This document shows, piece after piece, positions 1,474 through 62,682 of a DNA stretch of 64,000 nt. The position numbers and the translations under genes are program-made. Within the stretch, counting starts at the first letter, position 1. Every line of letters begins with the position of its first letter. This DNA comes from Lachnospiraceae bacterium (GTDB lineage: Bacteria; Bacillota; Clostridia; Lachnospirales; Lachnospiraceae). The stretch covers positions 58,756 to 122,755 of the forward strand of contig JAEEUS010000004.1 in NCBI GenBank assembly GCA_016290615.1. The letters are read 5' to 3'. Under the pieces are notes generated by a model, which saw only the letters and a program-made list of their open reading frames with translations, did no database searches and had not been told where the DNA came from.

Positions 1474-1512
1474 TGTATTAACGCCTTCTTTCTAAAATAA
1501 ACTGAATATATA

Positions 1513-1850
1513 AAACAAGCAGAACTGTAAGCCGGGTTATGTCTTGGATGATCATCTATCTAGGACGGTCGTTGCCGACCGCCTCAAGCGACCTACCTGG
1601 AAGCTCGCCGGGCAAGGTCAACGCTTCCTGCTTGGTCTTGCTTCAGATGGAGTTTACATGTGCCCTGTCTGTTACCACACAGGCGGTAGTCTCTTACACT
1701 GCCATTTCACCCTTACCCCGAGGGGCGGTATATTTCTGTTGCACTGGTCTGGGAGTCACCTCCACCGGACGTTATCCGGCATCCTGCCCTATGAAGCCCG
1801 GACTTTCCTCGTCAGCTATTGCTGCCGCGATCACCCGTCCTGCTTGTTTT
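1513..1850 (-). ncRNA. rnpB: RNase P RNA (bacterial class A type)
   Basis: Reverse complement contains GAGGAAAGTCCGGGCTTCATAGGGCAGGATGCCGG, ACAGAAATATACCGCC, and a terminal P1 stem (AAAACAAGCAG / CTGCTTGTTTT). Confidence 0.93.
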
Positions 1851-4239: not shown

Positions 4240-5378
4240 CAGTCGAGATAATCCTTTAACTTGCGAGATCTTGAAGGATGACGAAGCTTGCGCAGTGCCT
4301 TAGCCTCGATCTGACGGATTCTCTCACGTGTTACATTGAACTCTTTACCTACTTCTTCAAGAGTACGTGCTCTTCCATCATCAAGACCAAATCTCAGTCT
4401 TAATACCTTCTGTTCCCTGTCTGTCAATGTGCTTAAAACCTCAAGCAACTGCTCCTTTAAGAGTGTAAATGCAGCCGCGTCAGCCGGTACGGGAATATTG
4501 TCATCCGGTATGAAATCACCAAGATGGCTGTCTTCTTCTTCACCGATAGGTGTTTCGAGTGAAACAGGTTCCTGACTTATCTTCAGTATTTCTCTTACAC
4601 GCTCAACAGGCATGTTCATCTCTTCTGCAATCTCTTCAGGGGTAGGTTCACGACCAAGTTCCTGAAGCAGCTGTCTTGAAACGCGGATGAGCTTGTTGAT
4701 GGTCTCAACCATATGAACAGGTATACGTATAGTCCTTGCCTGATCAGCAATAGCTCTTGTTATAGCCTGTCTGATCCACCATGTTGCATATGTAGAGAAC
4801 TTGAATCCTTTGCGGTAATCAAACTTCTCAACAGCCTTTATAAGGCCAAGGTTTCCTTCCTGGATTAGATCAAGGAACAGCATTCCTCTTCCCACATATC
4901 TTTTAGCAATGGAAACTACAAGTCTTAAGTTTGCCTCTGCAAGTTTCTTCTTTGCCTCTTCATCGCCTTCTTCCATTCGAAGAGCCAGTTCGATCTCTTC
5001 TTCGGCTGAAAGTAACGGCACCTTTCCTATTTCCTTAAGGTACATACGAACAGGGTCTTCTATACTTACACCGTCCGGAACCGAAAGATCGATATTCTCC
5101 ATATCAATCTCTTCTTCATCGCTCAGCATGATCTCTTCATCATCAATGATATCAATATCATCAAGCGACATGTCATCTTCAACAGGATCGATCTTCATAA
5201 CATCGACACCTGCCGCATCCAATGTCTCGAGCAACTTATCCATCTGCTCCTCGTCAAGATTGAATTCCGCAAAAGTATCCAGAACTTCGTTGTACTCTAC
5301 AACGTTTTCCCTCTTCTTTGCGGAATCGAGGAATCCTTTCAGTTTTTCCTCAAATTTTGGTTGTAATGATTCGTCCAT
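4239..5378 (-). CDS. rpoD: RNA polymerase primary sigma factor RpoD/SigA
   Basis: Region 2 [37 protein letters not shown] and region 4 [25 protein letters not shown]. Confidence 0.98.
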
Positions 5379-5390
5379 GTTATAAATCTC

Positions 5391-7187
5391 CTATCCCAGT
5401 TTTATTTTTGTCTTTTTTAAATCTTCAAGAAGCTTCTTTCCTTCAACGACTCTTGTGATCGCATTCGGATTGCTTCCGATATTTCTTGAATAATACTCAA
5501 GACTTCCAGTCTTGACGCTGACCAGTATATCATGCAGTGTTTTTTCTCTTTCCCTGATATCATCTATCTCAGCCGGTAATCCGTCAGAATTAAGAAGCTT
5601 TGTGTTGAACAGTTCGGCAACTCTTTTCTGATCCTCTTCATCTTCGAAAGCGGATATGAATGATGCAGGTTCGATCTTATTGTCATCTTTCAGGCTCTCA
5701 AATAGCTTTTCAGCTATCTTTTGATACATCTCGTCCGTGAAATCATGCGGACTTATATATGGTGAGATCTTTTCGAATATGCTGTTATCCTCACTGATCC
5801 AGGTGATGAGCAGTCGCTGTGATCGTTTTCGTCCCTCTTCAGGATCAGCCTTCTTTATAGCCGGTTTGACAGCCATTTGTTCTAAGGGTCTTGATATCCC
5901 CGCAGCGGCATATCCGATGACCATCTTCTTCATTGCATCCGTCGAGATACTGTACCTTTCGCATATGGCATCGATATAATTATTTCTCTCGACCTCATCA
6001 GCAAATCCGCAGATCCTTTTAGCTATCTCTCTATAAAACGCCGTCTTTGAATCCGGATCCTTAAGATCATATCCTCTTTCAAGGACCTCTATCTCAAAGA
6101 AAAAGCTGTTCTTAGCATTATCTATTCGTTCCTGAAGCTTTTCGCTTCCCAGATTCTTTATGAATTCATCAGGATCCTTATAGGGATTAAGATCAAGTAC
6201 CTTTGCCGTAAGTTCAACTTCTCTTAGTATCCCGATAGCTCTCAATGCCGCATTGGTTCCCGCTCCGTCGCTGTCATAACTTAATATAACGCTGTTGCAG
6301 AATCTTTTTAAAAGATTTGCCTGACCTGATGTAAATGCCGTTCCAAGTGAAGCCACCGCTTCCTTGAATCCAGCCTGGTGCATGGATATTACATCCATAT
6401 AGCCCTCGCACAGTATCAGGTAATCCTTTCTTGATGATCTGGCAAAATTTAGTCCGAACAGATTTCTGCTCTTATCAAATATTGGTGTTTCCGGACTGTT
6501 TAAATACTTGGGTTCTCCCTCTCCCATGACTCGTCCGCCAAAACCGATCACCCTGTGATTGATATCCTGGATTGGGAACATCACTCTGTTCCAAAACTTG
6601 TCATGTGTCCCTCTTTTTTCATCATGGGATGCAAGGCCTGCTTTTACTATCAGTTCGTCCGTATAACCCTTTTGTTTCAGATATTTGACCAGATCATCTG
6701 AATACGGCAGAGAAAAGCCAAGTCCGAAACTGTTAATCGTATCAGAGGTGAGCTTTCGGTCCGTAAAATATTTCATACCCAGCTCTCCGGGTTTTCCCCT
6801 TAGCTGATAATAAAAATACTTGGCTGCCTCTTTATTTATCTCAAGCAGGATCGATTTCTCGCTCATCTGCTTTTTCTGTTCTTCGTTAAGCTTAAGCTCA
6901 GGCAGCTTTACTCCTGCTCTGTCCGCCAGTTTTTCTATGGCTTCCTGAAATGTCGCATTCTCATGCTTCATTAAGAAAGTAATGACATTTCCTCCGGTAT
7001 GGCAGCCGAAGCAGTAAAACATCTGCTTTGTGGAAGAAACCATGAACGACCCTGTCTTCTCATTATGGAATGGGCACAGGCCGACATAGTTGGCTCCCTT
7101 TTTTTGGAGTCTGACATAACCAGAAACAATATCCACTATATCATTTTTACTTCTGACTTCTTCTATGATCTCATCCGGATAATACAT
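5391..7187 (-). CDS. dnaG: DNA primase DnaG
   Basis: Zinc-binding CPFHNEKTGSFMVS...FYCFGCHTGGNVITF, TOPRIM LILCEGYMDVISM. Confidence 0.97.
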   Translation of the reverse strand: MYYPDEIIEEVRSKNDIVDIVSGYVRLQKKGANYVGLCPFHNEKTGSFMVSSTKQMFYCFGCHTGGNVITFLMKHENATFQEAIEKLADRAGVKLPELKLNEEQKKQMSEKSILLEINKEAAKYFYYQLRGKPGELGMKYFTDRKLTSDTINSFGLGFSLPYSDDLVKYLKQKGYTDELIVKAGLASHDEKRGTHDKFWNRVMFPIQDINHRVIGFGGRVMGEGEPKYLNSPETPIFDKSRNLFGLNFARSSRKDYLILCEGYMDVISMHQAGFKEAVASLGTAFTSGQANLLKRFCNSVILSYDSDGAGTNAALRAIGILREVELTAKVLDLNPYKDPDEFIKNLGSEKLQERIDNAKNSFFFEIEVLERGYDLKDPDSKTAFYREIAKRICGFADEVERNNYIDAICERYSISTDAMKKMVIGYAAAGISRPLEQMAVKPAIKKADPEEGRKRSQRLLITWISEDNSIFEKISPYISPHDFTDEMYQKIAEKLFESLKDDNKIEPASFISAFEDEEDQKRVAELFNTKLLNSDGLPAEIDDIREREKTLHDILVSVKTGSLEYYSRNIGSNPNAITRVVEGKKLLEDLKKTKIKLG

Positions 7188-8352: not shown

Positions 8353-8399
8353 AGTTAGGATTGCAAAAACAGACATATATAAAAATAAAGAAAAAAGAC

Positions 8400-11300
8400 A
8401 TGAAATACACATTAGGAATCGATATAGGTTCAACAACCGTTAAAATAGCCATATTGAATGAAGATCACAAGATCCTATTCTCTGATTATGAAAGGCATTT
8501 TGCCAATATTCAGGAAACACTTACAGATCTTCTTAAAAAAGCCAAGGAAAAACTCGGAAGCATGACTGTTCATCCCATGATAACGGGATCCGGCGGTCTG
8601 ACTCTGGCCAATCACCTCGAGGTGCCTTTTACCCAAGAAGTTATTGCTGTATCAACTTCTCTTGAAGAATTTGCGCCAAAGACTGATGTAGCCATTGAGC
8701 TAGGTGGTGAAGATGCTAAGATCATCTATTTTGATAACGGAAATATCGAACAAAGAATGAACGGCATCTGTGCCGGTGGTACAGGTTCATTTATAGATCA
8801 GATGGCAGCTCTGATCCAGACGGATGCAAAAGGGCTTAATGAATATGCAAAGAATTACTCATCACTATATACTATTGCGGCTCGTTGCGGTGTATTTGCC
8901 AAAACTGATATACAGCCGCTTATAAACGATGGTGCGACTAGAGAAGATCTTTCAGCTTCGATCTTCCAAGCCGTTGTAAATCAGACAATTTCAGGTCTTG
9001 CCTGCGGTAAACCGATAAGAGGTCACGTTGCTTTCCTTGGCGGTCCACTGCACTTTCTTTCAGAACTTCGCGCTGCTTTTATACGTACACTCAAACTCGA
9101 TGATGAACACATAATAGATGTCGATAACTCACATCTGTTTGCTGCAATCGGTTCAGCACTGAATGCTAAAGAAGACGTAAGCGTATCTCTAGATGAGATG
9201 ATCGCAAGATTAAGTAGCGGAATCAAGATGGAATTTGAGGTCGCACGTATGGAGCCTCTTTTTGCATCTGAAGAAGAATATGACGAATTTGAAAGAAGAC
9301 ACGCTAAAGCCCAGGTAAAAAAAGCTGATCTTGCAACATATAAAGGCAATTGCTTCATGGGTATCGATGCAGGTTCCACTACAACTAAGATCGCAGTTGT
9401 CAGCGAGGAGGGTGATCTTCTATATTCGTTCTACGATAATAACAACGGAAATCCCCTTCAAACAGCAATAGATGCCATCATCGATATTTATAAAGTTCTT
9501 CCAAGCGATGCTCATATTGTAAGATCATGCTCTACCGGTTACGGTGAGGCTCTTATGAAAGCGGCATTCCTTCTTGACGATGGTGAAGTTGAGACCGTTG
9601 CGCACTACTATGCCGCTGCATTCTTCAAACCTGACGTAGACTGCATCCTCGACATAGGCGGTCAGGATATGAAATGCATCAAGATCAAAAATCAGACCGT
9701 TGACAGTGTACAGCTGAATGAGGCATGTTCTTCAGGCTGCGGATCATTTATCGAAAACTTCGCTGAATCACTCAATTACAGTGTTCAGGATTTTGCGAAA
9801 GAAGCTTTGTTTGCTCCTCATCCGATCGATCTTGGTACACGTTGTACCGTATTTATGAATTCAAAGGTTAAGCAGGCACAGAAGGAAGGAGCAAGTGTTG
9901 CCGATATATCAGCTGGTCTTGCTTATTCTGTTATCAAAAATGCACTGTTCAAGGTTATAAAGGTATCAGATGCCTCAGAACTTGGCAAAAACATCGTTGT
10001 TCAGGGCGGAACCTTCTACAACAATGCTGTACTGAGAAGCTTTGAAAAGACAGCGAACTGTGAAGCGATACGTCCTGATATCGCCGGTATAATGGGTGCT
10101 TTCGGAGCCGCTCTCATATCAAGAGAAAGATATGAAGCCGGTTATCGTACTACAATGCTTGATCAGAAGTCTATCGAAAGTTTCACATTTGAAACAAGCA
10201 TGTCAAAATGCAAAGGTTGCACCAACAACTGCCGTCTGACAATAAATCGATTCCCCGGCGGCAGGAACTATATCTCCGGCAACCGTTGCGAACGCGGTAT
10301 CGGCAAGGAACGCAACAAAAACAACATTCCAAATCTTTTTGATTACAAGCTCAAAAGGTTCTTTGATTACGAACCTCTGTCAGCCGAAAAAGCCACTCGT
10401 GGAACCGTAGGTATTCCGAGAGTATTAAACATGTATGAAAACTATCCTTTCTGGTATACATTTTTCACAGATTTAGGTTTCAGAGTGATCCTGTCTCCTC
10501 TTTCAACCAGAAAGATTTATGAACTCGGTATAGAATCTATACCTTCTGAGTCGGAATGCTATCCTGCGAAACTTGCTCACGGACATATCATGTGGCTGAT
10601 CAATCAGAAGGTTGATTTTATATTCTACCCTGCTCTTTTCTATGAAAGAAATGAGTTTAAGGATGCAAACAATCACTACAACTGTCCTATTGTTACCTCC
10701 TATTCCGAGAATATCAAGAATAATGTCGAAGAAATAGGAAGAGGCGAAGTTAGATTTGTAAATCCGTTTCTCTCATTTATCAGTGCTGATGTGATCGCTA
10801 AGGCTCTGGTCAAGGAATTTAGTGATCTGCCTGCTCAGGAAGTTATCACGGCAGTTTATGATGCATGGCGTGAACTCGAGGCAGCTCATCATGATATACA
10901 GAAAAAAGGCGAAGAAGTTATAAAGCAGATTGAGGAAACCGGTATAAGAGGTATAGTCCTTGCCGGTCGTCCCTATCACCTCGACCCGGAGATCAATCAC
11001 GGAATCCCTGAAATGATCACTTCGTACAACATTGCAGTATTAACCGAGGACAGCGTTTCACATCTGGCACAGCCTGAAAGACCGCTAATAGTTTCCGATC
11101 AGTGGATGTACCACTCAAGGCTATACGCAGCTGCAAGTTTCGTTCGAACTACCGATAACATAGATCTTGTTCAGCTTAATTCATTCGGTTGCGGTCTTGA
11201 TGCGGTAACTACAGATCAGGTCAATGACATCCTTTCAAATGCGGATAAGATTTATACCTGTCTTAAGATTGACGAAGTTAACAATCTCGGTGCTGCAAGG

Positions 11301-12623
11301 ATCAGGATCCGTTCTCTAATCTCTGCACTGAATGTAAGAAAACGCCTGAACAAACAGAGAACTGTTCGTCCAAGTTCAATAAACAAGATTGAATTTACCG
11401 AGAAGATGTTTGATGATCGTTATACCATTATATGTCCTCAGATGTCTCCGATTCATTTTGACATCATGGGGCCTGCCATGGCAAGCTGCGGCTACAATCT
11501 TGTAGTCCTTGATACAAACTCACGTGCTTCCATAGACATGGGACTTAAATACGTCAATAATGATGCCTGCTATCCTTCTCTCTTGGTTGTGGGCCAGCTC
11601 ATGGAGGCGCTTTTCTCCGGGAAATACGACCTCAACAAAACTGCTCTTGTAATTACCCAGACTGGTGGCGGATGCAGAGCTACCAACTATATTGGATTTA
11701 TCAGAAGAGCACTTAAAAAAGCCGGTATGGAATATATTCCCGTTATATCCATGAACTTAGGCAATATAGAGACTAATTCCGGCTTCAAGATGAATGTAGA
11801 CTTCTTAAAGAGAGCTGCCATAGGTGCAGTCTTCGGTGATATATTCCAGAAGGTCGTATATCGTATGCGTCCTTATGAACTCGAAGCCGGAAGTGTGGAT
11901 AAGCTTCACGAGAAATGGAAAGAAAAGTGTATAGAGTTTGTAACTCAGAAACACCTTTCAATCCCTAAGATGTATAAGCTAATGAAGCAGATCATAAAGG
12001 ATTTTGATAATATACCGATTGATGAGAACCTTAAAAAGCCTCGTGTTGGAATAGTAGGCGAGATCCTAGTAAAATACTCTCCTGCCGGAAACAACAGACT
12101 CGTAGAACTTCTTGAAGCTGAAGGTGCAGAAGCTGTAGTACCTGAACTTATGGGCTTCATGCTGTACTGTTTCCATGATCAGGTTTATAAGAATGAGCAT
12201 TTCTTTACCAGCAAAAAGAGCGCCATGTTATCTCAGCTCGGAATAGATGCCATAGAATTTTTAACAAAACCGATTAACAAGGAATATGCAAAGAGCAAAC
12301 ACTTTGATCCAGCTCCACCGATATCCACATTGATAAAGTATGCTGAAGAATATGTATCAATCGGCAACCAGACAGGCGAAGGATGGTTCCTGGTCGGTGA
12401 AATGGTCGAACTCATCCATTCTGGTGCTCCCAACATTGTTTGTACTCAGCCGTTTGGATGTCTGCCCAACCACATAGTTGGCAAGGGTGTTATCAAAGAA
12501 CTTCGCAGAACGCATCCTGAGGCTAATATCGTTGCGATTGACTACGATCCCGGTGCTAGCGAAGTAAACCAACTAAATCGTATCAAGCTTATGCTCTCTG
12601 CAGCAGTCAAGAAAATGAAATAA
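8400..12623 (+). CDS. 2-hydroxyacyl-CoA dehydratase activase-type protein (duplicated BadF/BadG/BcrA/HgdC ATPase domains plus dehydratase-like region)
   Basis: [10 protein letters not shown] and [10 protein letters not shown] repeated ASKHA phosphate motifs, [13 protein letters not shown] and [13 protein letters not shown] cysteine motifs; start at ATG 8400 preferred over the ORF-track start at 8361. Confidence 0.9.
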
Positions 12624-51537: not shown

Positions 51538-52857
51538 CTAAACTATATTGGGTACTATCCCATGTTTTATATGTTTTCTGTAAAACAGATTAACACCAAA
51601 GTAGAACAGAGCTGTCAGTGGCCTTTTCCAGAAATTCCTGGTAAATATGGTTCTATTTAGGATGCATTTGTAAGAATATACTTCGTTGTACAACTCCCAG
51701 TATGCCTTTGTCAGTTCTTCGGGAGTCATGTTCTTCGGATAATGTACTGCCTCACAAGAGTTATATGAATACATATCAGTATTGTATATCCTGTCCTGCT
51801 CCTTCATTTCATCATAATACTGGGTTCCCGGTATCGGTGTGAGTATATAGAATCTCGGAACTGTTATCTTGTTATCTTCTATAAACTTAGCAGTCTCCTT
51901 TATGGATTCAAGAGTATCTCCTTCAGCTCCGACAACCATCTCTGTAGAAATATCTATCCCGTACTTGCGTATGATGTTAAGCTGCTCGCTGTATCTGTCC
52001 GGATGAGCCCACCCTTTCTGCATTCCTAAAAGACTCTCTCTGCTTATACTCTCTAGACCGAAGCTGAGTACATAGCAGCCACTTTCTGCAACGGTCTTTA
52101 AAAGCTCCTCGTCATTTGAAATGTCGATCGAACACTGGGTCATCCATTTCATCCTAAGCTTCTTTATCTCCCCACACAATTCAAGTGCATAATCCCTGTT
52201 CGAGAACAGATTGTCATCAAGTAGCAGGAACTGCTTAAATCCCAGTTCCTTAACTCTTTTTATATCCCTTATTACATCAGCGATCTCCCTTTTAAGGTAC
52301 TGTCCGTGATACAGGCAGTATATAGAACAGAAGCTGCATGTCTTCGGACATCCTCTTCCGGCCTGTACAGGAAGGAAGTTTCCAATCTTCTTGTTCAATA
52401 CAAGCTCATATCTCGGAAGCGGTGTTACAAGCTTTGTGAGCTTCTTTTTGTAGGTTTTCTTAAGGCATCCGTTAAGATAATCACTTAACATCTCTCCCCA
52501 AGTTTCCTCTGAATCACCTATCATTACCGCATCACAGTATTTCTGTGCCTCATCAGGCATTAAAGAGACCATATATCCGCCAAGTATCACCGTCTTTTTA
52601 AGTTCTCTGAACCTCTTTGCAATGTCAATAGTCCTCATTACGGCGTGACCCATGCTACTGATCCCTATCAGCTCGGCATCTGTATCAAACGGAACATCTT
52701 CGATCGTCTCATAACACAGTTCAACTTCAAAATCATCAGGTGTCAGAGCAGCAAGAAGCGGCAGGGCAAGCCCCACGAAGTACAGTCTGTTTTTCTTTAC
52801 CAGATTCCCGTATTGGTCATATGGTGTAGGTTGTATTAGTAATATCTTTTTATTCAT
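51538..52857 (-). CDS. B12-binding-type radical SAM protein (rSAM-1, most divergent)
   Basis: GRGCPKTCSFCSIYCLYHGQYLKRE CxxxCxxC; N-terminal Rossmann-like region with ELIGISSMGHAVMRTIDIAKRF and VILGGYMVSLMPDEA. Confidence 0.92.
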   Translation of the reverse strand: MNKKILLIQPTPYDQYGNLVKKNRLYFVGLALPLLAALTPDDFEVELCYETIEDVPFDTDAELIGISSMGHAVMRTIDIAKRFRELKKTVILGGYMVSLMPDEAQKYCDAVMIGDSEETWGEMLSDYLNGCLKKTYKKKLTKLVTPLPRYELVLNKKIGNFLPVQAGRGCPKTCSFCSIYCLYHGQYLKREIADVIRDIKRVKELGFKQFLLLDDNLFSNRDYALELCGEIKKLRMKWMTQCSIDISNDEELLKTVAESGCYVLSFGLESISRESLLGMQKGWAHPDRYSEQLNIIRKYGIDISTEMVVGAEGDTLESIKETAKFIEDNKITVPRFYILTPIPGTQYYDEMKEQDRIYNTDMYSYNSCEAVHYPKNMTPEELTKAYWELYNEVYSYKCILNRTIFTRNFWKRPLTALFYFGVNLFYRKHIKHGIVPNIV

Positions 52858-54230
52858 AACACAAATGCACGCTTTATCTTTATAAACAATACTTTAAATA
52901 TGTAAATGACTGCTCCAGGGTAATTGTTTTCGGAATAAAGAGCAGATTTTCTGTTATGCCATGCCAGCTTGAGCGATAACCTGTAATACAGTCTTGTAAA
53001 TGCTCTTACGCTCATATGCTCAGGCTTAAGCAGACAGTGAAAAAGATCCTGTTTGGTAACATCTCTTGTTATCATATCTTTTTCATATTCCTTGTAGGTT
53101 GCTGAGCCCTGCATTGGAGTAAAAACTGATACCGTCGGTATGATATCTCTTGCCGATATCCACTCGTACAGCTTTTTAAAGTCTTCTTTTGTCATATGCT
53201 GATGAACTATGAAAAGCCCTGCACAGAATATTGAATTCTCACTTAGAATACGAATACATTCCTCATTTTCTTCAAGAGAAGTTCTTTTATTATATGAGTC
53301 AAGCTCATCATCGTTAGTGGCTTCAAGTCCCACCATTACAAGTGAAAGTCCTATGTCTGCCAGTTCCTTTATAAGTTCCTCGTGATGAGCAATAAAATCC
53401 GCTCTTCCGTAAATAAGGAATTTCTTGTGAACATCTTTTATTCTTATCAGCCTGATAAATTCTCTCAGATACTCCTCATCTACCAAAAAATCATCATCTG
53501 TTATATGTATGGCTGGAACATCAAGAGATGCTATTTCATCCACCAGACTTTCCACATGTCTACACGCATATCTTCCGCTGTTTCGATTTGTGCAGAAGCA
53601 GAAATTGCATGCTTTTTTACAGCTGTAGGAATTTTTAACAAGTGCCAGCGGTTTAAAGCATAGATATCTAAACCTGTTTATATTGGCATAAAGATATGTT
53701 CTGTCAGGTATGGGAAGATCATCGGGAGTCTCGATTACCTTCTGATTCACTACCCACTTATCTTCCTTTCTGTAGCATATACCGGGTATGTCAGTCGGAT
53801 AATTACGCTCTTTTTGATCACCTTTAAGTTCACTGTCAATAAAGTCAACCAGTTTTACAAGATTTGAAAGTCCGCTCAGATGATACAGATAATCAGCCTG
53901 TGAATCAAAATAGTTTTCATAATTGATCTCAACATTAGATCCGCCGAGTATTATACGGATATTTTTGTCAAAAGATTTTATTACTCTGCAGTATCTTTTC
54001 ATGAGTTCCTGCTGAGTAATGTACCCGGTAATGCATACTACATCGGGTCTAGTGATCCTTATTTTCTTCTTTAAAGAACACAGTTCATAACGCCTGTCAT
54101 ATATGACAGTTTCATGACCGTTATTCTTAAAAACGGTATACAGATATTCCATTTCTAGGGGCTCATGTTCCACAAGATATGTGAAGCTGAATATTCCCAC
54201 CGTTTCTGGTTTTATCAAAAGGATCTTCAT
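52854..54230 (-). CDS. B12-binding-type radical SAM protein (rSAM-2)
   Basis: SYSCKKACNFCFCTNRNSGRYACRHV; VCITGYITQQELMKRY; ITDDDFLVDEEYL; YGRADFIAHHEELIKEL. Confidence 0.92.
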   Translation of the reverse strand: MKILLIKPETVGIFSFTYLVEHEPLEMEYLYTVFKNNGHETVIYDRRYELCSLKKKIRITRPDVVCITGYITQQELMKRYCRVIKSFDKNIRIILGGSNVEINYENYFDSQADYLYHLSGLSNLVKLVDFIDSELKGDQKERNYPTDIPGICYRKEDKWVVNQKVIETPDDLPIPDRTYLYANINRFRYLCFKPLALVKNSYSCKKACNFCFCTNRNSGRYACRHVESLVDEIASLDVPAIHITDDDFLVDEEYLREFIRLIRIKDVHKKFLIYGRADFIAHHEELIKELADIGLSLVMVGLEATNDDELDSYNKRTSLEENEECIRILSENSIFCAGLFIVHQHMTKEDFKKLYEWISARDIIPTVSVFTPMQGSATYKEYEKDMITRDVTKQDLFHCLLKPEHMSVRAFTRLYYRLSLKLAWHNRKSALYSENNYPGAVIYIFKVLFIKIKRAFVL

Positions 54231-54239
54231 TGTTTACCA

Positions 54240-55553
54240 TCAGTTGTTTCTGTATCGTTTGTTAAATGTATGAACTATACCTGCATAATATATTCTGGGA
54301 TAATTCACGTAATAGAGGAAATGAAACTCAAGCTTAAAAAGCCACATCGGAAGTTTGGAAGGCTTCATCAGAACGCTCGTTCCACCCGTTCTTCTGTATC
54401 TGTATTTATAGAGTCTGTCCTTGTTTTCCTCATATACTGCTGTTCCTTTAAACGGTATTAGTATACTGAACAGCACCCATATAAGTTTCTCCTTTTTTAT
54501 GAACTCATTTATATGCATGAAATCCCTGTGTGAAAAATCATAATTGATGACAAAAAGTCCCACGCAGAGCATGTTGTGTTCACGAAGTATCCTCACAGCG
54601 TTCTTATTTAGACTGACACTGGAATTCTTATTATACTTTTCAAGTGTTGAATCATCGACCGCCTCAAGACCTACAAGCATGTCCCTGATCCCTGCCTTGT
54701 ATATCAAAGGCATGATATCCTCGCATCTTACAATGCTGTCTGCTCTTGAAAAGATCATGAATGTCTTATGTATGCCAAGTTCCAAAAGCCGATTGCAAAT
54801 ATATGTGACGCGTTCCTTGTTTACCAGGAAATCATCATCAATGATAAATATCTTGTCGTTGTCTATACCTATTATCTCTTCAATGACAGAATCAGCATCA
54901 CGCTCTCTGTACTCGCAGCTGTTAAACTGTCTTGAAATACAGAACTTGCAGTTCTGTGGGCATGAAAATGCAGTCTTCATCATAGAAAAACAGCCTTTAG
55001 CCAAAACCTTGAATTTATCTCTGTTATCATAAAAATGGCTTCTGTCCGGCAGGATACCGTAATCACTTACGGGCTCTCCCTTGAGATTGCTCACCCATTC
55101 TCCGCTTTTTCTGTATGCAAGTCCGCTTACCTTATCAAGTATACTATCATCAAAGTCATGTCTTATCGCCAGTCTGAACGAATCAAGGCCATTGTCATAT
55201 GACACGTAATCGACTTCATCTAAAAGAAAATCCTCATGATTGATAACAACCTCCGGACCACCGACCATTATCTTTATATCAGGTCGCGCCGCCCTTAATT
55301 TCTTTATGAGTTTTAATACATACCATGCGGTGTTAGACATCACAGAAAAACCGACAATAGTTACATTATTATCGTCAACCTTCTTTAACAGCCTTAAAAA
55401 GCGGCCAAACGGACTCTCTATGCTCTCATCATATATAAAGCCTTCCCTGTTCTCGGCCTTGACACATGCCATGAGATACTCAAGTCCAAGCGGTTCCAGA
55501 CTAGCCACTCTCTTATCGTAATGTACTCGTACAAACATATACTTCTGTGTCAT
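54240..55553 (-). CDS. B12-binding-type radical SAM protein (rSAM-3)
   Basis: AFSCPQNCKFCISRQFNSCEYRERD; IVGFSVMSNTAWYVLKLIKKL; IIDDDFLVNKERV; start ATG 55553 separated by 1 nt from the upstream TGA. Confidence 0.92.
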   Translation of the reverse strand: MTQKYMFVRVHYDKRVASLEPLGLEYLMACVKAENREGFIYDESIESPFGRFLRLLKKVDDNNVTIVGFSVMSNTAWYVLKLIKKLRAARPDIKIMVGGPEVVINHEDFLLDEVDYVSYDNGLDSFRLAIRHDFDDSILDKVSGLAYRKSGEWVSNLKGEPVSDYGILPDRSHFYDNRDKFKVLAKGCFSMMKTAFSCPQNCKFCISRQFNSCEYRERDADSVIEEIIGIDNDKIFIIDDDFLVNKERVTYICNRLLELGIHKTFMIFSRADSIVRCEDIMPLIYKAGIRDMLVGLEAVDDSTLEKYNKNSSVSLNKNAVRILREHNMLCVGLFVINYDFSHRDFMHINEFIKKEKLIWVLFSILIPFKGTAVYEENKDRLYKYRYRRTGGTSVLMKPSKLPMWLFKLEFHFLYYVNYPRIYYAGIVHTFNKRYRNN

Positions 55554-55554
55554 A

Positions 55555-56880
55555 TCAGAACCAACCTTTTTTCTTAGTATCATAAGCGGTGCCCAAAAGA
55601 GTTCTGACCATGATCTTTGGATATGTTAAAACATGTATCCAGTAATACCTGAACATAAACTCAAATGAACTCATGTTGGTGGGCTTAATTGTAATGTGAG
55701 TACCATCTAGTCTGCTAGATCTGAAATTAATCAGCATGTCCTTGTATTCATCATATGCATCCGTTCCTTTGTAAGGAGTAAAGATACCGAATACTACCCA
55801 GAGCATGTTATTGTCCCTGACAAATTTCATCAGATTCCTAAAATCCTGTCTTGTTGCCGTATAGCTTATAACAAACAGACCGTCACATACTATGTTGTTA
55901 TCCAAAAGGTTCCTAATTGCAAGGATGTTTTCATTTTTCGATGTCTGCTTGTTATAGATATCAAGCTGTTCGTCGGTAATCGCTTCGAGTCCGACGAGTA
56001 TATCTCTGAATCCGGCCTCATATGCAAGAGGCAGAATATCAGGATTCGCAGCGATAAAATCTGCTCTTGCATAAGCCATAAAAGTCTTATTAATGCCCCT
56101 TGAGATTATCTCTTCACAAAATGCTCTGACTCTTTCCTTATCAAAGAAAAAGGTATCATCAACAAACCAGATCTTATCGTGCTTGATCTCCTCTACCTCG
56201 TCAACAACCTCCATTATGTCTCTTTCGGTATACTTTCCGCTGTTCATCTTGGTACAGTAGCAGAAACAACACCCGAACGGACACGAAAAAGAAGCCTTGC
56301 TGAGTGCATACTTTCCCTTCATGAAAATGAAGTTCTTCTTTAATCCCTTATAAAATGCACTCCTGTCAGGCTTATTGATAAATCCGCAGACAGGTTCTCC
56401 CTTCTCCTTGATGACCCATTTCCCTTCTTTTTTAAAGCATATGCCCGTTAGTTTTTCGAGTTTATCGGGTTCAAATCCGTTCTCCCACATGCTTTTAAGA
56501 GTCATCAGTCCGTTATCATGATAGATAAGATCCACATCATCACAGCAAAAGTCTCTGTAATTGAGTTCAGCCTCGGGACCTCCTACCATGATAGTAATAT
56601 CGGGAAATCTTTTCTTTAGCTGCCCTGCCCTCATCTTAATATAATCAACAGTATTGGCATTGGCATTGAATCCTATGAAGTTGTAGCCGCCCTTCTTTAT
56701 AAGCCTGCACATTCTGTTAAGCCTGCCGATCCATGAATACTGGAACTCATCATGAATCTCGCATTCTATCCCGAGCTCACCCGCAAGTCCCGAAAGATAT
56801 TCAAGTCCTAGCGGTTCAAGATTTGCAACTATAGAAGAGTATTTTGGCCTGATTAGTAAAACTTTGATCTTTTCGTTCAT
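55555..56880 (-). CDS. B12-binding-type radical SAM protein (rSAM-4)
   Basis: SFSCPFGCCFCYCTKMNSGKYTERD; FIGFNANANTVDYIKM; FVDDTFFFDKERV; YARADFIAANPDILPLAYEAGFRDILVGLEA. Confidence 0.92.
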   Translation of the reverse strand: MNEKIKVLLIRPKYSSIVANLEPLGLEYLSGLAGELGIECEIHDEFQYSWIGRLNRMCRLIKKGGYNFIGFNANANTVDYIKMRAGQLKKRFPDITIMVGGPEAELNYRDFCCDDVDLIYHDNGLMTLKSMWENGFEPDKLEKLTGICFKKEGKWVIKEKGEPVCGFINKPDRSAFYKGLKKNFIFMKGKYALSKASFSCPFGCCFCYCTKMNSGKYTERDIMEVVDEVEEIKHDKIWFVDDTFFFDKERVRAFCEEIISRGINKTFMAYARADFIAANPDILPLAYEAGFRDILVGLEAITDEQLDIYNKQTSKNENILAIRNLLDNNIVCDGLFVISYTATRQDFRNLMKFVRDNNMLWVVFGIFTPYKGTDAYDEYKDMLINFRSSRLDGTHITIKPTNMSSFEFMFRYYWIHVLTYPKIMVRTLLGTAYDTKKKGWF

Positions 56881-56889
56881 ATTAAGACA

Positions 56890-58254
56890 TCATTTCCCGA
56901 CAATTAATTTCTTCCAGTATTGATTGTTCACCTTAAAGGCACCCCAGCTTAGCTTGAGTGTATCGTGAAGTCCGTACTTTTTTATCATGTACCATGCACT
57001 GACAGGATTAGCTGTTATCCTGTAGTAAAGCACCATTGTATACCAGTAATATCTTCTTACTGAAATGTTATCTGGTCTGACTACAAGATGAGCCAGGTCC
57101 CATTTCTCATATTCATCTTCTCTTACGATAAACCTGGGTTTATACTTCTCATATATATCTGTTCCCCTAAGTGGAGTAAGCGGCTGTAGATTAACAAAGA
57201 CAAGTCCGAGCTTCTTTATCCATTTATACAGTGCATCAAAGTCAGCCCATATCCAGTCAAGTCCGAGAATAAATGTTCCGTAGCATTCCACATCATACTT
57301 TTTAAGTATCGAAACCGCTTTTTCATTTATATCGACATTAGTCCTCTTGTTGTAGTCATCGAGCTGTTTGCTGTCACATGATTCAAGTCCCACTATTACG
57401 GCTCTTAACCCTGCATCCTTAAATCTTGCTATCACATCTTCATTGGCAGCGATAAAATCGGCTCTGCCATATATCAGATATTTCTTGTTAATATTTCGCT
57501 GTTTGAGAAGTTCACAGAATTCCAGGATTCTTTTCCTGTCTACCAAAAAGTCGTCATCGACAATATATATTTCCGTTTCCTTTATACTCTCAAGTTCGTC
57601 AACAATGTTTTCAATATCTCTGGCAAAGTACTGATCATCCATGACCTGACGGCAGAAACAGAACTTGCAGTTATACGGACAGCCAAACGATGTTTTTATA
57701 AGACTGCAGTTTCTGTGAAACATGTAGTAATACTTTGATCTGTATCTGTCTACCTTTGCTCTGTCAGGGAAAAGATAGTCAAATGTCAGATCCTTCTTTG
57801 GTGCTGCCTTATCCCTTGAATACACACAGTCCATACTGCTTTCAGACTCTTTGCCCTCTATACAGTTTAAAACATCAATGAAAGTCCTAATGCCGTTTGC
57901 CCTGATTATATAATCGACATATTCTGACTCAAAATCCTGTGGATTAACCTCGGCATGCACACCTCCGATAACTGTCTTTACATCTGGGTTATATGCCTTT
58001 GCCTCATAAGCATACTGCTTCATAATATTTACATGGGAAATATATCCGGTGATACCTACAACATCCGGATCATACTTCTTCATAAAATATGTAACAGGTT
58101 TCTTTTCTATGATCATATCGACTATGACACAGCTATGTCCCAGCGTCTCTATATTGGCTGAAATGTATTCCAGCTCAAGAGGCTCGCAGATCATGACGTT
58201 CTGCAAGCCGATAGTTTCCTTATGAGGTCTTGGTCTGAATAACAGTACTTTCAT
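56890..58254 (-). CDS. B12-binding-type radical SAM protein (rSAM-5)
   Basis: SFGCPYNCKFCFCRQVMDDQYFARD; DVVGITGYISHVNIMKQY; IVDDDFLVDRKRIL; YGRADFIAANEDVIARF. Confidence 0.92.
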   Translation of the reverse strand: MKVLLFRPRPHKETIGLQNVMICEPLELEYISANIETLGHSCVIVDMIIEKKPVTYFMKKYDPDVVGITGYISHVNIMKQYAYEAKAYNPDVKTVIGGVHAEVNPQDFESEYVDYIIRANGIRTFIDVLNCIEGKESESSMDCVYSRDKAAPKKDLTFDYLFPDRAKVDRYRSKYYYMFHRNCSLIKTSFGCPYNCKFCFCRQVMDDQYFARDIENIVDELESIKETEIYIVDDDFLVDRKRILEFCELLKQRNINKKYLIYGRADFIAANEDVIARFKDAGLRAVIVGLESCDSKQLDDYNKRTNVDINEKAVSILKKYDVECYGTFILGLDWIWADFDALYKWIKKLGLVFVNLQPLTPLRGTDIYEKYKPRFIVREDEYEKWDLAHLVVRPDNISVRRYYWYTMVLYYRITANPVSAWYMIKKYGLHDTLKLSWGAFKVNNQYWKKLIVGK

Positions 58255-59315
58255 TATTGACTCTCTTTAAAGACATTGTAATCGGGAAAGTCATATCTGT
58301 ATTCAAGGACATGCCTTCCCAACATGGCAAATATATTTAAAACCGGGTTTGTATGATGCGCATAGAAATATCTCTTTTCAAGTACTGCACCAAACTTAAG
58401 CTTTGTATTCTCCGATGTCTGCCCGAAATCTATTGAATCGCAATCATTCCTGATCGCATAATCAACTATATTAAACAGCATGTAATAGTACAGATCGACA
58501 CAGCTAATCTTTCGATCATTCATTTCATAATCCATACCGCAGAACATGAAAACTAATCTTTTTGCTGTCTGTTTTAGCATGACAAATCCTACGGGTTTAC
58601 ACTGTTCAAAAAACACTATCTTTTGTGCATCTATCTCGTCAAAAAAGCTTTTTGAAAGCCTTTCTAGCTTATAATCTGATCTTTCATAAGTCTGTAGATA
58701 CAAGGGATATATATCGATGCTTGCATCACATATCTGCTTAAGCTCAATATCTGCACATCTCTTAATGGCAAGATTCATCCGTCGCCTGTACTGGCTTCTT
58801 AATGAAGACAGATAATCTTCCTTGTTATTAACCTTTGCATCCAGCTTAAGAACACAAGTCGGAAGTGTCTCTCCAAATGACATGCCATCTGCTTTTGCTA
58901 AAGAATCCACGTTGAGCACTAGTTTGCAGCCCTTTATGGTCTTTATGTAAGAAAGCATAAACTCTATATTATTAGTAAGATATCCGCCACAGCTTAATGA
59001 ACAAGGAAATGCAACAGTCTGTATATTCATAAAAAGACTTGCTTTTCCAAAAGTAAACAGATTCATCCTGTTGTCATATACGATAAAAAAGGCGTAGTCA
59101 CTTCCGTTATCTATGTAATAATATGTCTGACTTAACGGATTGCCGTTTTTCAGGATCTTTATGAGATCAGGTTCAAATGGAAAAGGCAAAAAATCTTCCC
59201 GGGTATATGGATAATCCTTTGTTATAGTTCCTTCCTTCAGTTCAGCAAACAACTCATCTGCATCATTTCCGATATATTTTGTCACATTATCAGATGCTTT
59301 TTTCATAAACTGCAT
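58254..59315 (-). CDS. GNAT/FemAB-like acyltransferase family protein (acyltransferase A)
   Basis: LRSQYRRRMNLAIKRCADIELKQIC..QKIVFFEQCKPVGFVMLKQT..YYYMLFNIVDYAIRNDCDSIDFGQTSENTKLKFGA; internal Met start (59315 or 59306) avoids the 140-nt overlap of the ORF-track start. Confidence 0.75.
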   Translation of the reverse strand: MQFMKKASDNVTKYIGNDADELFAELKEGTITKDYPYTREDFLPFPFEPDLIKILKNGNPLSQTYYYIDNGSDYAFFIVYDNRMNLFTFGKASLFMNIQTVAFPCSLSCGGYLTNNIEFMLSYIKTIKGCKLVLNVDSLAKADGMSFGETLPTCVLKLDAKVNNKEDYLSSLRSQYRRRMNLAIKRCADIELKQICDASIDIYPLYLQTYERSDYKLERLSKSFFDEIDAQKIVFFEQCKPVGFVMLKQTAKRLVFMFCGMDYEMNDRKISCVDLYYYMLFNIVDYAIRNDCDSIDFGQTSENTKLKFGAVLEKRYFYAHHTNPVLNIFAMLGRHVLEYRYDFPDYNVFKESQ

Positions 59316-60375
59316 AATCCTTGTAGTCTTTTTCACATATAGCCCTGCAGAAACTGTTTGAGTCATCGTTTTCATCAAGTATCCATGATGTCTCGACTCT
59401 TGTGCAACCGTAATCGGGCATAAGATCATAAACTTTGCTTATGAGTGCTATGGGCAATCCGCTGCCGCGGTATTCTTTAACAACACCGTATTCCATAACC
59501 TTAGCCGTATGTATCAAGCGCTTATTAAGCTTATATCTTAAATAATGGATCGCGCCGAATACTTCTCCCGGATCTGCCAGTTCATTATAATCGGGATACC
59601 ACATGATAAATCCTACCGGCTTATCATCACGGAAAGCAAAAATGATGGAATCCTCCTTCATAAACATAAAAAGCTCCTTAAGCATCTCCTTATCATGTTC
59701 ATATTCCCTGTGATAATAATATCTGTGATCTGTGAAACATACATTATTCAGATCAGTGTATATCCTCGAATAATAGTCAAACCTTTTCTTATCAAACACC
59801 CTGAACTCATAATTTCTGTTAAGCTTCTTTATTATTGCTGAGTATCTGTCCAGTCGGTTTTGCAGATTATCAGTTATATATGAATTAAGCTTTATAAGCT
59901 CACAGCCAAGATCAGAAAAATAATCGTTGTAAAATTTAGGATTCCCCGGAGATGAAAACGAATTGGATTCATCATAACGGGATGACTGAATCCCAAGTCC
60001 GTAATTTACATGTCCGTACAGGCCTATTACAAGTCTAGTGCATTTATGTTCTTTTCCGACTTTCACCGCTTCATCAACAAGCATTTTGACAGCATCTTTG
60101 CAGTCTTGCCTCGCTTCAAAAAAACAAAGCTGCACATATTCCTTAAGATCCTCTGTATAAGCTATGATTCCCTCACATAATATGCAGTCAGATTCATCCG
60201 TTATCATGACAGGTCTGATATCCATGTTCTCGGTAAACTTAAGCTTTCCTGCAAATATCTCCTGCAGCATAAAATAATTATTGTCTATATACAGTTTTCT
60301 TGACTTATATAACGCTTTTCGAAACAGCAAGAATTTCTTTTGCAGTTTTCTGCTGTCAGCAACACATACTTTCAT
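59290..60375 (-). CDS. GNAT-like acyltransferase family protein (acyltransferase B)
   Basis: DSIIFAFRDDKPVGFIMWYPDYNEL..RLIHTAKVMEYGVVKEYRGSGLPIALISKVYDLMPDYGCTRVETSWILDENDDSNSFCRAI. Confidence 0.75.
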   Translation of the reverse strand: MKVCVADSRKLQKKFLLFRKALYKSRKLYIDNNYFMLQEIFAGKLKFTENMDIRPVMITDESDCILCEGIIAYTEDLKEYVQLCFFEARQDCKDAVKMLVDEAVKVGKEHKCTRLVIGLYGHVNYGLGIQSSRYDESNSFSSPGNPKFYNDYFSDLGCELIKLNSYITDNLQNRLDRYSAIIKKLNRNYEFRVFDKKRFDYYSRIYTDLNNVCFTDHRYYYHREYEHDKEMLKELFMFMKEDSIIFAFRDDKPVGFIMWYPDYNELADPGEVFGAIHYLRYKLNKRLIHTAKVMEYGVVKEYRGSGLPIALISKVYDLMPDYGCTRVETSWILDENDDSNSFCRAICEKDYKDYAVYEKSI

Positions 60376-60600
60376 CTATTCTTCAATCAGTGTCTTAAGA
60401 TAATCACACATCTGGCCAATAGTGGTCATCTTCCTGTATTTCTCCTCATCAAGCTCTATAGAGTATCTCTCCTCGACTAAGCATACAAGATTCATCAGAT
60501 CAAACGAATTGAGTCCCAGATCCTTTTTAAAATCCGTATTTAGATCAATATCCTTTATTCCGTAGTTTTCTGACAGAATCTGTTTTATGTCCTCAAACAT
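60376..60600 (-). CDS. Acyl carrier protein
   Basis: FKKDLGLNSFDLMNLVCLVEERYSIELDEE; phosphopantetheine Ser at residue 32 (GLNS). Confidence 0.92.
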   Translation of the reverse strand: MFEDIKQILSENYGIKDIDLNTDFKKDLGLNSFDLMNLVCLVEERYSIELDEEKYRKMTTIGQMCDYLKTLIEE

Positions 60601-62170
60601 ACAAACTCCTCTTTATTTTTCTTGAGCTGTTCTTTTCAAATTCTTTGCTCATGATCTCAAAATCATCTATATGCATATAACCGGGCAAGGTTTCATTTAT
60701 ACTATCGATATCTTCCTTTATCTTCTCTTTTGAAGCATTTTCAGATAACACAATAAGCGCCGTAAGAATATGATTTCCCCTTTCAGTCTTTTTATCAACC
60801 ACTAGGCTCTCTTTCACATAATCTATACTGTTTATCTTGTCCTCAAGATACTCCGGCGCTACGTTTTTACCGTTTTCAAGTATTATAAGATTTTTCTTTC
60901 TGCCTGTCACATAGATGACACGCCCATCTGTGTATCCAATATCTCCGGTACAGAAATAACCGTCCTTCATGCACTGCTTTGTGGCGGTATCATCCTTGTA
61001 ATATCCGATCATGACACAGGGACCTTTTACCATGATCTCGCCTTCGTCGGAGATCTTTACATCTATGTTCTTCATGATCGTACCGGCACTGCCTGCAACA
61101 TTATTGTATACTCTGCTAACCGCTATCGTAGGAGAGCATTCAGTCAGACCGTACCCGTTCAGGATTGTTATACCCAGTTCGTCAAATTTCTCAACATATT
61201 CACTGTTTAATGCAGCCCCTCCATTAACAACAAGCCTCAGATTCTTATTGATGAAACTTCCAAAGAATATATGTCTAAGATCAATACCTACTTTAAGAAA
61301 GATCCTGCTTATAAAAAGCATTGTCCTAAATACTCTTTCCTTCTTTTGCCGTCTGACTTCTCTCAGGATATTGCTATACATCCCCTCTATGACCATTGGT
61401 ACGGCACCGAAAAAGAACGGATCAAAAGCCTTTAGATCTCTTGAAAGGTGTTTCAGTTCAAGGCACAGGCAAAGAGTTGTTCCATTATACAGAGTTGCCA
61501 ACATACACGGATTGAATCCATAGGTATGATTCATAGGCAGGAATGCGAGCGTCGGGTTTTCCAGTACGTTGTTTTCGAGAGTTCCACGAATGTTTGTTAT
61601 CACATTATACTGTGACAGCATGACTCCCTTCATTTTTCCGTCTGTTCCCGATGTGGACACCAGTATAGCAAACCTGTCTTTATCCGTATCTTTTACATCT
61701 TCGAAAAATGATGCCGTTTCATATCCGTCAGTCATGTTGCAGAAGCATTTATCTATATTGTAGAGCTTCACATCATCGGATACCAACGATATCCTTTCTG
61801 ACGTTTTATCGGTGTAGAAAAGAGCATCAACATCAAACCGTCTCATGCATTCAGCTACAGTCTGTTTGTCAAGCTCTTTATCTATTGGCACAATGACATT
61901 GCCAAATACACTTGCAAGATAAATGATTATGTACTCATAACGGTTTTCAGAAAGAATTGCTATATGGCTCCCTCTAAATCCTTCACTTTTCATAAAGCCA
62001 TAAACATAAGCTATCTGATCTATCATTTCATGATATGTGATATCTACAGTTTTATCACCTTTCATGAACCGGATAGCACATGTATCACTGCTTGCATCAT
62101 ATCTGGCCCTAAGCATTTCATAGAAGTTATCATATATAACTGTATCTAGATAAGGATAATCCATACTCAA
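60593..62170 (-). CDS. AMP-dependent acyl-CoA/acyl-ACP ligase
   Basis: FAILVSTSGTDGKMKGVMLSQYNV, LNGYGLTECSPTIAVS, CTGDIGYTDGRVIYVTGRKKNLIILENGKNVAPEYLEDKI, NSSRKIKRSLY. Confidence 0.94.
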   Translation of the reverse strand: MSMDYPYLDTVIYDNFYEMLRARYDASSDTCAIRFMKGDKTVDITYHEMIDQIAYVYGFMKSEGFRGSHIAILSENRYEYIIIYLASVFGNVIVPIDKELDKQTVAECMRRFDVDALFYTDKTSERISLVSDDVKLYNIDKCFCNMTDGYETASFFEDVKDTDKDRFAILVSTSGTDGKMKGVMLSQYNVITNIRGTLENNVLENPTLAFLPMNHTYGFNPCMLATLYNGTTLCLCLELKHLSRDLKAFDPFFFGAVPMVIEGMYSNILREVRRQKKERVFRTMLFISRIFLKVGIDLRHIFFGSFINKNLRLVVNGGAALNSEYVEKFDELGITILNGYGLTECSPTIAVSRVYNNVAGSAGTIMKNIDVKISDEGEIMVKGPCVMIGYYKDDTATKQCMKDGYFCTGDIGYTDGRVIYVTGRKKNLIILENGKNVAPEYLEDKINSIDYVKESLVVDKKTERGNHILTALIVLSENASKEKIKEDIDSINETLPGYMHIDDFEIMSKEFEKNSSRKIKRSLYV

Positions 62171-62682
62171 TAACCCGCTATTACACTCTCCCCGATCTTC
62201 TTGATATTATCATCGAGAACGGCAAAAACGATATCTATTTCATAATCGGGATTGCTTTCAATAAAATCATTGCAAGCCTTGATTGCTCTGTCCCATGCCT
62301 TATCTATAGGGTATCCGAATATCCCGGCAGATATAAGCGGAAATCCTATTGAATGAATTCCGTTCTCCTTTGCAATGATCAATGACTTCATGTATGCACT
62401 GTACAACAGTTTCGGCTCATTGTTATTGCCTCCTGACCATCTTGGTCCAACAGCGTGGATAACATACTTTGCGGGAAGGTTAAAGCCGGGAGTGATCACA
62501 GCAGAGCCTTCATCGCAATGTCCGATTGCATTACAGGCTTCAGTCATCTGCTTCGATCCCGCATCATGAAAAATATATCCGCAGACTCCTCCGCCTTCCC
62601 ACAGTCCGGAATTAGCTGCATTTACAACAGCATCCGTATCAAGCTTTGTAATACCTATCTTTTTTATTGATATACCACTCAT
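62167..62682 (-). CDS. Macro domain (ADP-ribose-binding/O-acetyl-ADP-ribose deacetylase family) protein
   Basis: VVNAANSGLWEGGGVCGYIFHDAGSKQM..AKYVIHAVGPRWSGG..SIGFPLISAGIFGYP. Confidence 0.92.
   Translation of the reverse strand: MSGISIKKIGITKLDTDAVVNAANSGLWEGGGVCGYIFHDAGSKQMTEACNAIGHCDEGSAVITPGFNLPAKYVIHAVGPRWSGGNNNEPKLLYSAYMKSLIIAKENGIHSIGFPLISAGIFGYPIDKAWDRAIKACNDFIESNPDYEIDIVFAVLDDNIKKIGESVIAGY

Follow-up and report, generated by a model that had tools for sequence, protein, structure and literature searches.

Organization of the locus

The 64,000-nucleotide stretch of a Lachnospiraceae genome analysed here (the window) extends to the last base of its contig, which measures 122,755 bp in a genome of 2.9 Mb. 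Positions 51538-62170 hold nine minus-strand open reading frames (ORFs) that directly adjoin one another or share several base pairs at their ends, as a check of the ORF list confirmed. In order of transcription they encode an acyl-AMP ligase (LIG), an acyl carrier protein (ACP), two transferases (AT-B and AT-A) and five B12-binding radical S-adenosylmethionine proteins (B12-rSAMs; R5, R4, R3, R2 and R1) (Table 1). An initial annotation of this DNA had proposed a single pathway in which an acid is activated onto the ACP, modified there by the five rSAMs and transferred by two GNAT-like acyltransferases. Comparison with related genomes gives good support to the view that the nine-gene set is a version of one conserved pathway unit.

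The coordinates and order of the near-gapless run were reproduced, and so were the junctions once corrected starts were used. LIG and ACP overlap by 8 nt, ACP and AT-B meet with a gap of 0, AT-A and R5 share 1 nt (TAATG), R4 and R3 are 1 nt apart (TGATATG, with the R3 start at 55553) and R2 and R1 overlap by 4 nt (ATGA). The R5/R4 and R3/R2 spacings are both 9 nt, and AT-B and AT-A overlap by 17 nt when ATG 59306 is taken as the AT-A start. On sequence comparison this start is almost certainly the right one, rather than that of the longest ORF at 59429, because the homologues begin there. Pfam backs all nine labels, the weakest being that of AT-A (PF13480, E 0.015). Internal promoters or terminators in the nine-gene run showed no excess beyond shuffled sequence (44 promoter-like sites vs 49.7 in shuffles), and there is thus no sign of independent promoters splitting the rSAM genes from the ligase/ACP module.

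Table 1. Genes of the cluster in window coordinates, and a gene pair found in three related loci in the coordinates of those loci.
Feature	Description	Position	Strand	Basis
LIG	Acyl-AMP ligase, probable acyl-ACP synthetase, first gene	60593..62170	-	PF00501
ACP	Specialised acyl carrier protein	60376..60600	-	PF00550, S32 motif
AT-B	Tandem-GNAT N-acyltransferase, YghO/CerS type, core	59290..60375	-	PF00583, hhalign
AT-A	PF13480-type FemX/MprF-like transferase, core	58254..59306	-	Weak PF13480, predicted fold
R5	HpnR-like B12-binding radical SAM protein, core	56890..58254	-	PF02310, PF04055
R4	B12-binding radical SAM protein, Lachnospiraceae-specific paralogue	55555..56880	-	Pfam, tree
R3	B12-binding radical SAM protein, Lachnospiraceae-specific paralogue	54240..55553	-	Longest ORF from 55583
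R2	B12-binding radical SAM protein, widespread variable module	52854..54230	-	Pfam, tree
R1	B12-binding radical SAM protein, separate lineage, core	51538..52857	-	Pfam, tree
FeeM-type and phosphatidylserine-decarboxylase-like pair		L114 14817-16051; L117 3904-5192; L115 2987-4221

Conservation of the gene set

The gene set occurs with conserved order in about 30 related anaerobe genomes, which carry at least 11 family codes of Clostridia-type Bacillota; because the same set recurs in so many genomes with its order kept, it goes beyond chance. Isolates with the cluster include Acetoanaerobium noterae DSL2 and Lachnospiraceae AB2028. A scan for AT-A returned 14 named loci whose gene order is largely constant in the maps and which belong to Lachnospiraceae metagenome-assembled genomes (MAGs), isolate AB2028, a Butyrivibrio-labelled MAG, a Candidatus Epulonipiscium MAG and a Defluviitaleaceae MAG. 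Among named relatives, Lachnospiraceae MAG RUG13505 stands nearest, with an AT-A 81% identical to that of the window.

Co-occurrence was counted in two genome samples, 392 genomes of the order and a separate draw of 398 from the phylum. R1 orthologues were found in 8 of the 392 order genomes at 58% identity or more, the next matches dropping to 39%, and AT-A in 10, including all eight R1 carriers; the gene maps place AT-B, AT-A and R5 beside R1 in these loci. The phylum draw added seven AT-A genomes from six families, all with AT-B, a class I methyltransferase (MT), R5 and R1 clustered, and eight R1 genomes, the one beyond the AT-A set being G651. Both samples together thus give AT-A in 15 of 16 R1 genomes, with AT-B and R5 adjoining where contig ends do not intervene, and the claim of one co-conserved pathway is borne out. 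A further genome, G288, has AT-A without R1 in a fragmented assembly. Pairwise distances of AT-A, AT-B, R1 and R5 are correlated (r 0.86-0.96; 0 of 2000 permutations as high) among genomes that are not phylogenetically independent. The initial annotation had looked to the co-conservation of a ligase, an ACP, two GNAT proteins and at least three B12-rSAMs; AT-B, AT-A, R5 and R1 do recur, whereas the ligase and ACP are variable. The cluster is apparently undescribed, and no published description was found in the open-licence full texts searched, which is weak evidence of absence.

Core and variable modules

AT-B, AT-A, R5 and R1 form a near-invariant core, the first three standing together in all loci not interrupted by contig ends. 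LIG with ACP, R2, R3/R4, the further rSAMs R6/R7 and the class I methyltransferase are variable modules. The minimal cluster, LIG-ATB-ATA-R5-R1, lies in genome G460 (L059) and has a ligase only 27% identical to LIG, and Acetoanaerobium noterae DSL2 shows the layout ATB-ATA-R2-MT-R5-R1-R6. R2-type genes are present in most clusters. Among the loci mapped, those with R3/R4 lack both the 209-aa methyltransferase and R6/R7, and those with the methyltransferase lack R3/R4; one or two past exchanges may account for this exclusivity. In L114, L115 and L117, a FeeM-type N-acyl amino acid synthase gene and a phosphatidylserine-decarboxylase-like gene are inserted between R1 and R2, those of L115 being assigned by gene map and length match.

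The two transferases

TRANSFERASES

On profile comparison AT-B is homologous over its full length to YghO, a member of the family of bacterial ceramide synthase (CerS) N-acyltransferases: its profile aligned with Escherichia coli BL21 YghO at 99.4% probability over 357 aligned columns (E 4.7e-21, hhalign). AT-A, tried as a second member of the YghO family, was rejected at just 0.6% in the same comparison, which provides a negative control for AT-B. Against PDB sequences the AT-B profile recovered weak generic GNATs only; the nearest solved folds to its AlphaFold model (pLDDT 84) are thioester-dependent tandem GNATs. YghO and CC_1154 are N-acyltransferases needed for dihydroceramide, for which an ACP and a specialised acyl-ACP synthetase are required as well, the AasR ligase loading only its cognate ACP (PMC9386255, PMC11324152).

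PF13480 was detected in 18 of 18 AT-A members (best E 6e-9). The AT-A model (pLDDT 87) has a tandem GNAT fold with FemX-like topology, and its top Foldseek matches are Sbb17/Sba18 and FemX, followed by lysyl- and alanyl-phosphatidylglycerol synthases (A-PGS/L-PGS/MprF). Ranks 1-23 are all FemX, Fem, Sbb17 or MprF entries (E 5.5e-10 to 1e-6, TM about 0.4-0.55). The likeness to these proteins thus lies in the predicted fold and in the PF13480/FemAB-like signal, and the difference in an identity of 8-14%. From PDB descriptions or established knowledge we take Sbb17/Sba18, FemX and the lysyl/alanyl-phosphatidylglycerol synthases to be aminoacyl-tRNA enzymes, and the model suggests that AT-A is a candidate aminoacyl-tRNA-dependent transferase. 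Of the two GNAT-like acyltransferases first annotated, one therefore stands, AT-B as a YghO/CerS homologue, whereas AT-A has a FemX/MprF-like predicted fold instead.

The ligase and the carrier protein

LIG scores 168.7 bits against PF00501 and starts at TTG 62170, with ATG 62164 as an alternative. It shares 24% local identity with E. coli AasR, and its relatives of solved structure are CoA ligases. The overlap of the two genes and the co-conservation of the pair suggest that LIG would load its cognate ACP rather than CoA: in ten loci an orthologue 46-86% identical to LIG stands immediately 5' of ACP. The carrier protein (PF00550, 44 bits) has a GLxSFD motif with the phosphopantetheine serine S32, invariant across nine orthologues, and misses the cut-off for housekeeping ACPs (TIGR00517, 51.5 vs 70.45 bits).

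The pair and its neighbouring acyltransferase are thus genuine parts of the cluster in this lineage, as annotated. The central place given to the carrier protein did not hold, since in most other families no ACP adjoins the cluster. LIG and ACP are not adjacent in L009, L010, L056-L058, L111-L113, L116, L117 and L120, and a short-ORF motif scan of the ACP-less clusters (by gene map only for L120) found no hidden ACP. Because no ACP-like ORF was found near these clusters, the carrier protein counts as an accessory in this lineage and not as part of the core.

The radical SAM proteins

CxxxCxxC is intact in all five rSAMs, and PF04055 is significant in each (44.9-62.3 bits). The B12-type N-termini proposed for them were recovered as well: PF02310 is significant in all five and exceeds the 32.1-bit gathering score in three, R1 (30.8 bits) and R4 (31.4 bits) falling just below it. 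R5 scores 62.9 bits for PF02310 and 62.1 bits for PF04055. A motif scan found the DxHxxG cobalamin motif in none of the five. The genome carries a cobalamin riboswitch, which marks B12 use in general; the PF02572 adenosyltransferase, another marker of B12 use, is absent, and methylcobalamin enzymes need no such adenosyltransferase.

Known NCBIfam identities were rejected for all five proteins, none of which reached a cut-off. The hopanoid C-3 methylase HpnR (TIGR04367), a B12-rSAM whose target is an unactivated carbon of a lipid, is the best model for R2-R5 or level with BchE, with R5 scoring highest (170 bits); unlike HpnR, these proteins reach only 105-170 bits against a cut-off of 650 and lie in no hopanoid context. 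The nearest models of R1 are ApyD (92.7 bits, cut-off 750), PhpK, BchE and HpnJ, which belong to the same superfamily; all its scores are at or below 92.7 bits, far under curated cut-offs of 481-750, and R1 also has weak similarity to MiaB/RimO. Solved relatives are OxsB, CysS, AprD4, TokK and TsrM for R5 and AprD4 for R1. Sequence homology does not tell methylation, cyclisation, rearrangement and coupling apart in these proteins, and the multiply methylated or C-C-coupled product of the initial annotation stays a candidate only.

A tree of 99 rSAM sequences, built by a quick method with SH-aLRT support, resolved single orthologue groups for R1 (100), R5 (97) and R6/R7 (100). R3 and R4 are sister groups (support 100) confined to Lachnospiraceae-type clusters, and R1 stands on a different superfamily branch (the PhpK/BchE/HpnJ/ApyD side) from R2-R7. 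R1 is also the most conserved protein of the cluster, with 57-89% identity across families and a mean column identity of 74%.

Some loci show irregular or additional genes around the rSAMs. R5 is split into two ORFs in L058 (11572-12859) and R1 is disrupted or truncated in L115 (G478, 4351-5583), in each case through assembly error or decay. A trio of ABC ATPase, HypB/CobW-like GTPase and PF04060 Fe-S motif protein lies inside the clusters L016 (7305-9435) and L020 (17185-19279) and may assist the rSAMs in metal or corrinoid maturation. Upstream (5') of MT in L010 (12960-13820), L057 and L058, a 286-aa flavodoxin-like protein with two 4Fe-4S motifs, kept in one genus, is a candidate electron donor. 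Outside these clusters, in L118 (G236:C12, 7471-12450) and L119 (G312:C5, 6874-15690), an R2-like/HpnR-like rSAM accompanies an AMP ligase, a PlsC-type acyltransferase (assigned in L119 from its sequence) and a CDP-alcohol phosphatidyltransferase; L119 adds a phosphoenolpyruvate mutase, a thiamine pyrophosphate decarboxylase and an NTP-transferase/iron alcohol dehydrogenase fusion. This neighbourhood has the appearance of a phosphonolipid cluster that includes a radical SAM step.

Proposed pathway and alternative explanations

With about even chances, in our judgement, the locus encodes a conserved anaerobic pathway that makes an acyl-amino-acid (amide) lipid or lipid-like product remodelled by B12-rSAMs. 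The amide or lipid chemistry, aminoacyl-tRNA use, the order of the steps and the type of reaction of each rSAM are the parts that we infer. LIG would charge the dedicated ACP with a free fatty or carboxylic acid, and lineages that lack the pair would draw acyl groups from the house pool. With aminoacyl-tRNA as its probable donor, AT-A would pass an aminoacyl group to an acceptor amine or hydroxyl, and AT-B would N-acylate an amine using an acyl thioester. R5 and R1 would then perform two obligatory radical steps at unactivated carbons, and R2, R3/R4 or R6/R7, and elsewhere the class I methyltransferase, would decorate the product according to lineage. The FeeM and phosphatidylserine-decarboxylase-like insertions, the R2-like rSAM among lipid genes and the HpnR similarity point to lipid or amide chemistry, a part of the proposal that we regard as equally balanced between right and wrong.

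Several observations weigh against this amide-lipid pathway. The cluster has no known product, its five rSAMs have no characterised close relative, and no amine-generating or headgroup enzyme is found in the window's own cluster. The scores of LIG are no lower for CoA ligases than for acyl-ACP synthetases, and many clusters have no ligase/ACP beside them. The AT-B model also matches FemX structures, at lower rank, and fold alone does not reveal donor specificity. G651 has R1 without AT-A, but there R1 is alone on a 2-kb contig, and G100 (77% complete) carries the cluster without R1. A single E. coli Spt query, run with no positive control, found no Spt homologue at 1e-5 in the genome (G000). 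A sphingolipid pathway was rejected on this one query, and the amine accepted by AT-B is probably not of the sphingolipid type because no Spt-like gene was found.

The product might instead be diffusible, an antibiotic or signal in the form of a small peptide-like amide or acylated amino acid that FemX-type and CerS-type transferases assemble and the B12-rSAMs decorate before export, which we consider unlikely but worth serious attention. The FemX-like Sbb17/Sba18 function in antibiotic biosynthesis according to their PDB descriptions, the accessory rSAMs differ between clusters as they do in natural-product clusters, and AT-A is patchy within its genus (2 of 20 listed genomes). Transporters adjoin some clusters (MFS in L010, an ABC exporter pair with a MerR regulator in L009, EamA in L120), yet no transporter or resistance gene is common to all, and a core whose R1 varies as little as described above is unusually conserved for a secondary metabolite. 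The scheme of the initial annotation, in which five rSAMs methylate or couple a fatty acyl group that remains ACP-bound until both GNAT-like enzymes transfer it, is improbable. The operon does begin with a ligase and a dedicated ACP, a pair conserved together in ten loci, and specialised acyl-ACP synthetase/ACP pairs exist (PMC9386255). However, AT-A resembles aminoacyl-tRNA enzymes in its predicted fold, and rSAM action on an ACP is not general because the ACP-less clusters of most other families keep R1, R5, AT-A and AT-B.

Two further schemes have much less in their favour. Since some B12-rSAMs form C-C bonds, the rSAMs could couple two acyl tails into a membrane-spanning, diabolic-acid-like lipid; Butyrivibrio-type Lachnospiraceae are known for diabolic acid. 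A radical route to its C-C bond was proposed in work cited by PMC8941075. Yet the cluster occurs in a small minority of the family, its core spans many non-Lachnospiraceae families and no link was found between core genes and diabolic acid, in a comparison that did not extend to membrane-spanning-lipid synthase sequences, and we hold this scheme to be very improbable. Least credible of all, to the point of near dismissal, is a modified ribosomal peptide (RiPP) or a tRNA or cofactor modification pathway. It could be read from the 92.7 bits of R1 to the RiPP enzyme ApyD and from the MiaB/RimO similarity, but the former is far under the 750-bit cut-off and YghO-type and FeeM-type acyltransferases do not fit. 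A RiPP was rejected on the gapless window cluster, which leaves no intergenic space for a precursor peptide.

Relation to known systems and significance

Among the closest known parallels to the proposed amide-lipid pathway is the ceramide locus aasR-cerR-acpR-spt with yghO/cerS of E. coli B and Caulobacter, which shares an AMP ligase, a dedicated ACP and a YghO/CerS N-acyltransferase; inspection of the E. coli B locus placed yghO beside fatty acyl-AMP ligase, epimerase, ACP and spt. By analogy, LIG-ACP-ATB parallels AasR-AcpR-CerS. Unlike the ceramide locus, the window cluster has neither Spt nor CerR, and two to five B12-rSAMs and a FemX-like enzyme are found instead. Relatives of the N-acyl amino acid synthase FeeM and of phosphatidylserine decarboxylase occur in L114, L115 and L117 and are absent from the window cluster.

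B12-radical SAM enzymes perform some of biology's hardest reactions, and to our knowledge only a small number have been linked to a known substrate. Clusters in which the same two transferases accompany orthologous sets of these enzymes, two to five at a time and in cultured strains too, offer a tractable route to a new lipid or amide and allow several uncharacterised B12-rSAM families to be studied in one pathway. If the proposal is true, the YghO/CerS acyltransferase family would be linked to something other than sphingolipids. In a broader and more doubtful extension, which we would sooner bet against than for, the cluster would define an ancient, widespread and undescribed class of lipids or lipo-amino acids in anaerobic Bacillota. 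A CerS-type acyltransferase and an aminoacyl-tRNA-dependent transferase would assemble these molecules together, and an obligatory B12-rSAM pair with lineage-specific additions would rebuild them at unactivated carbons.

Neighbouring genes and other features of the window

The genes 5' of LIG are unrelated and genome-dependent (macro/YbaK/HAD here; UPF0029, FMN reductase-like or MATE elsewhere), and the neighbours 3' of R1 likewise vary between genomes. The macro-domain gene (ADP-ribose hydrolase-type, window 62167-62682) ends 2 nt before the ligase ATG; its position is kept only in the closest relative, L013, and it is probably a read-through neighbour outside the pathway. An Rfam scan gave RNase P RNA (RF00010, window 1512-1846, minus strand) as the sole match in the window, and hence no cobalamin riboswitch within it. 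A 1420-aa ORF (window 8361-12623) is the only gene of such great length on the plus strand of a window that otherwise reads on the minus strand.

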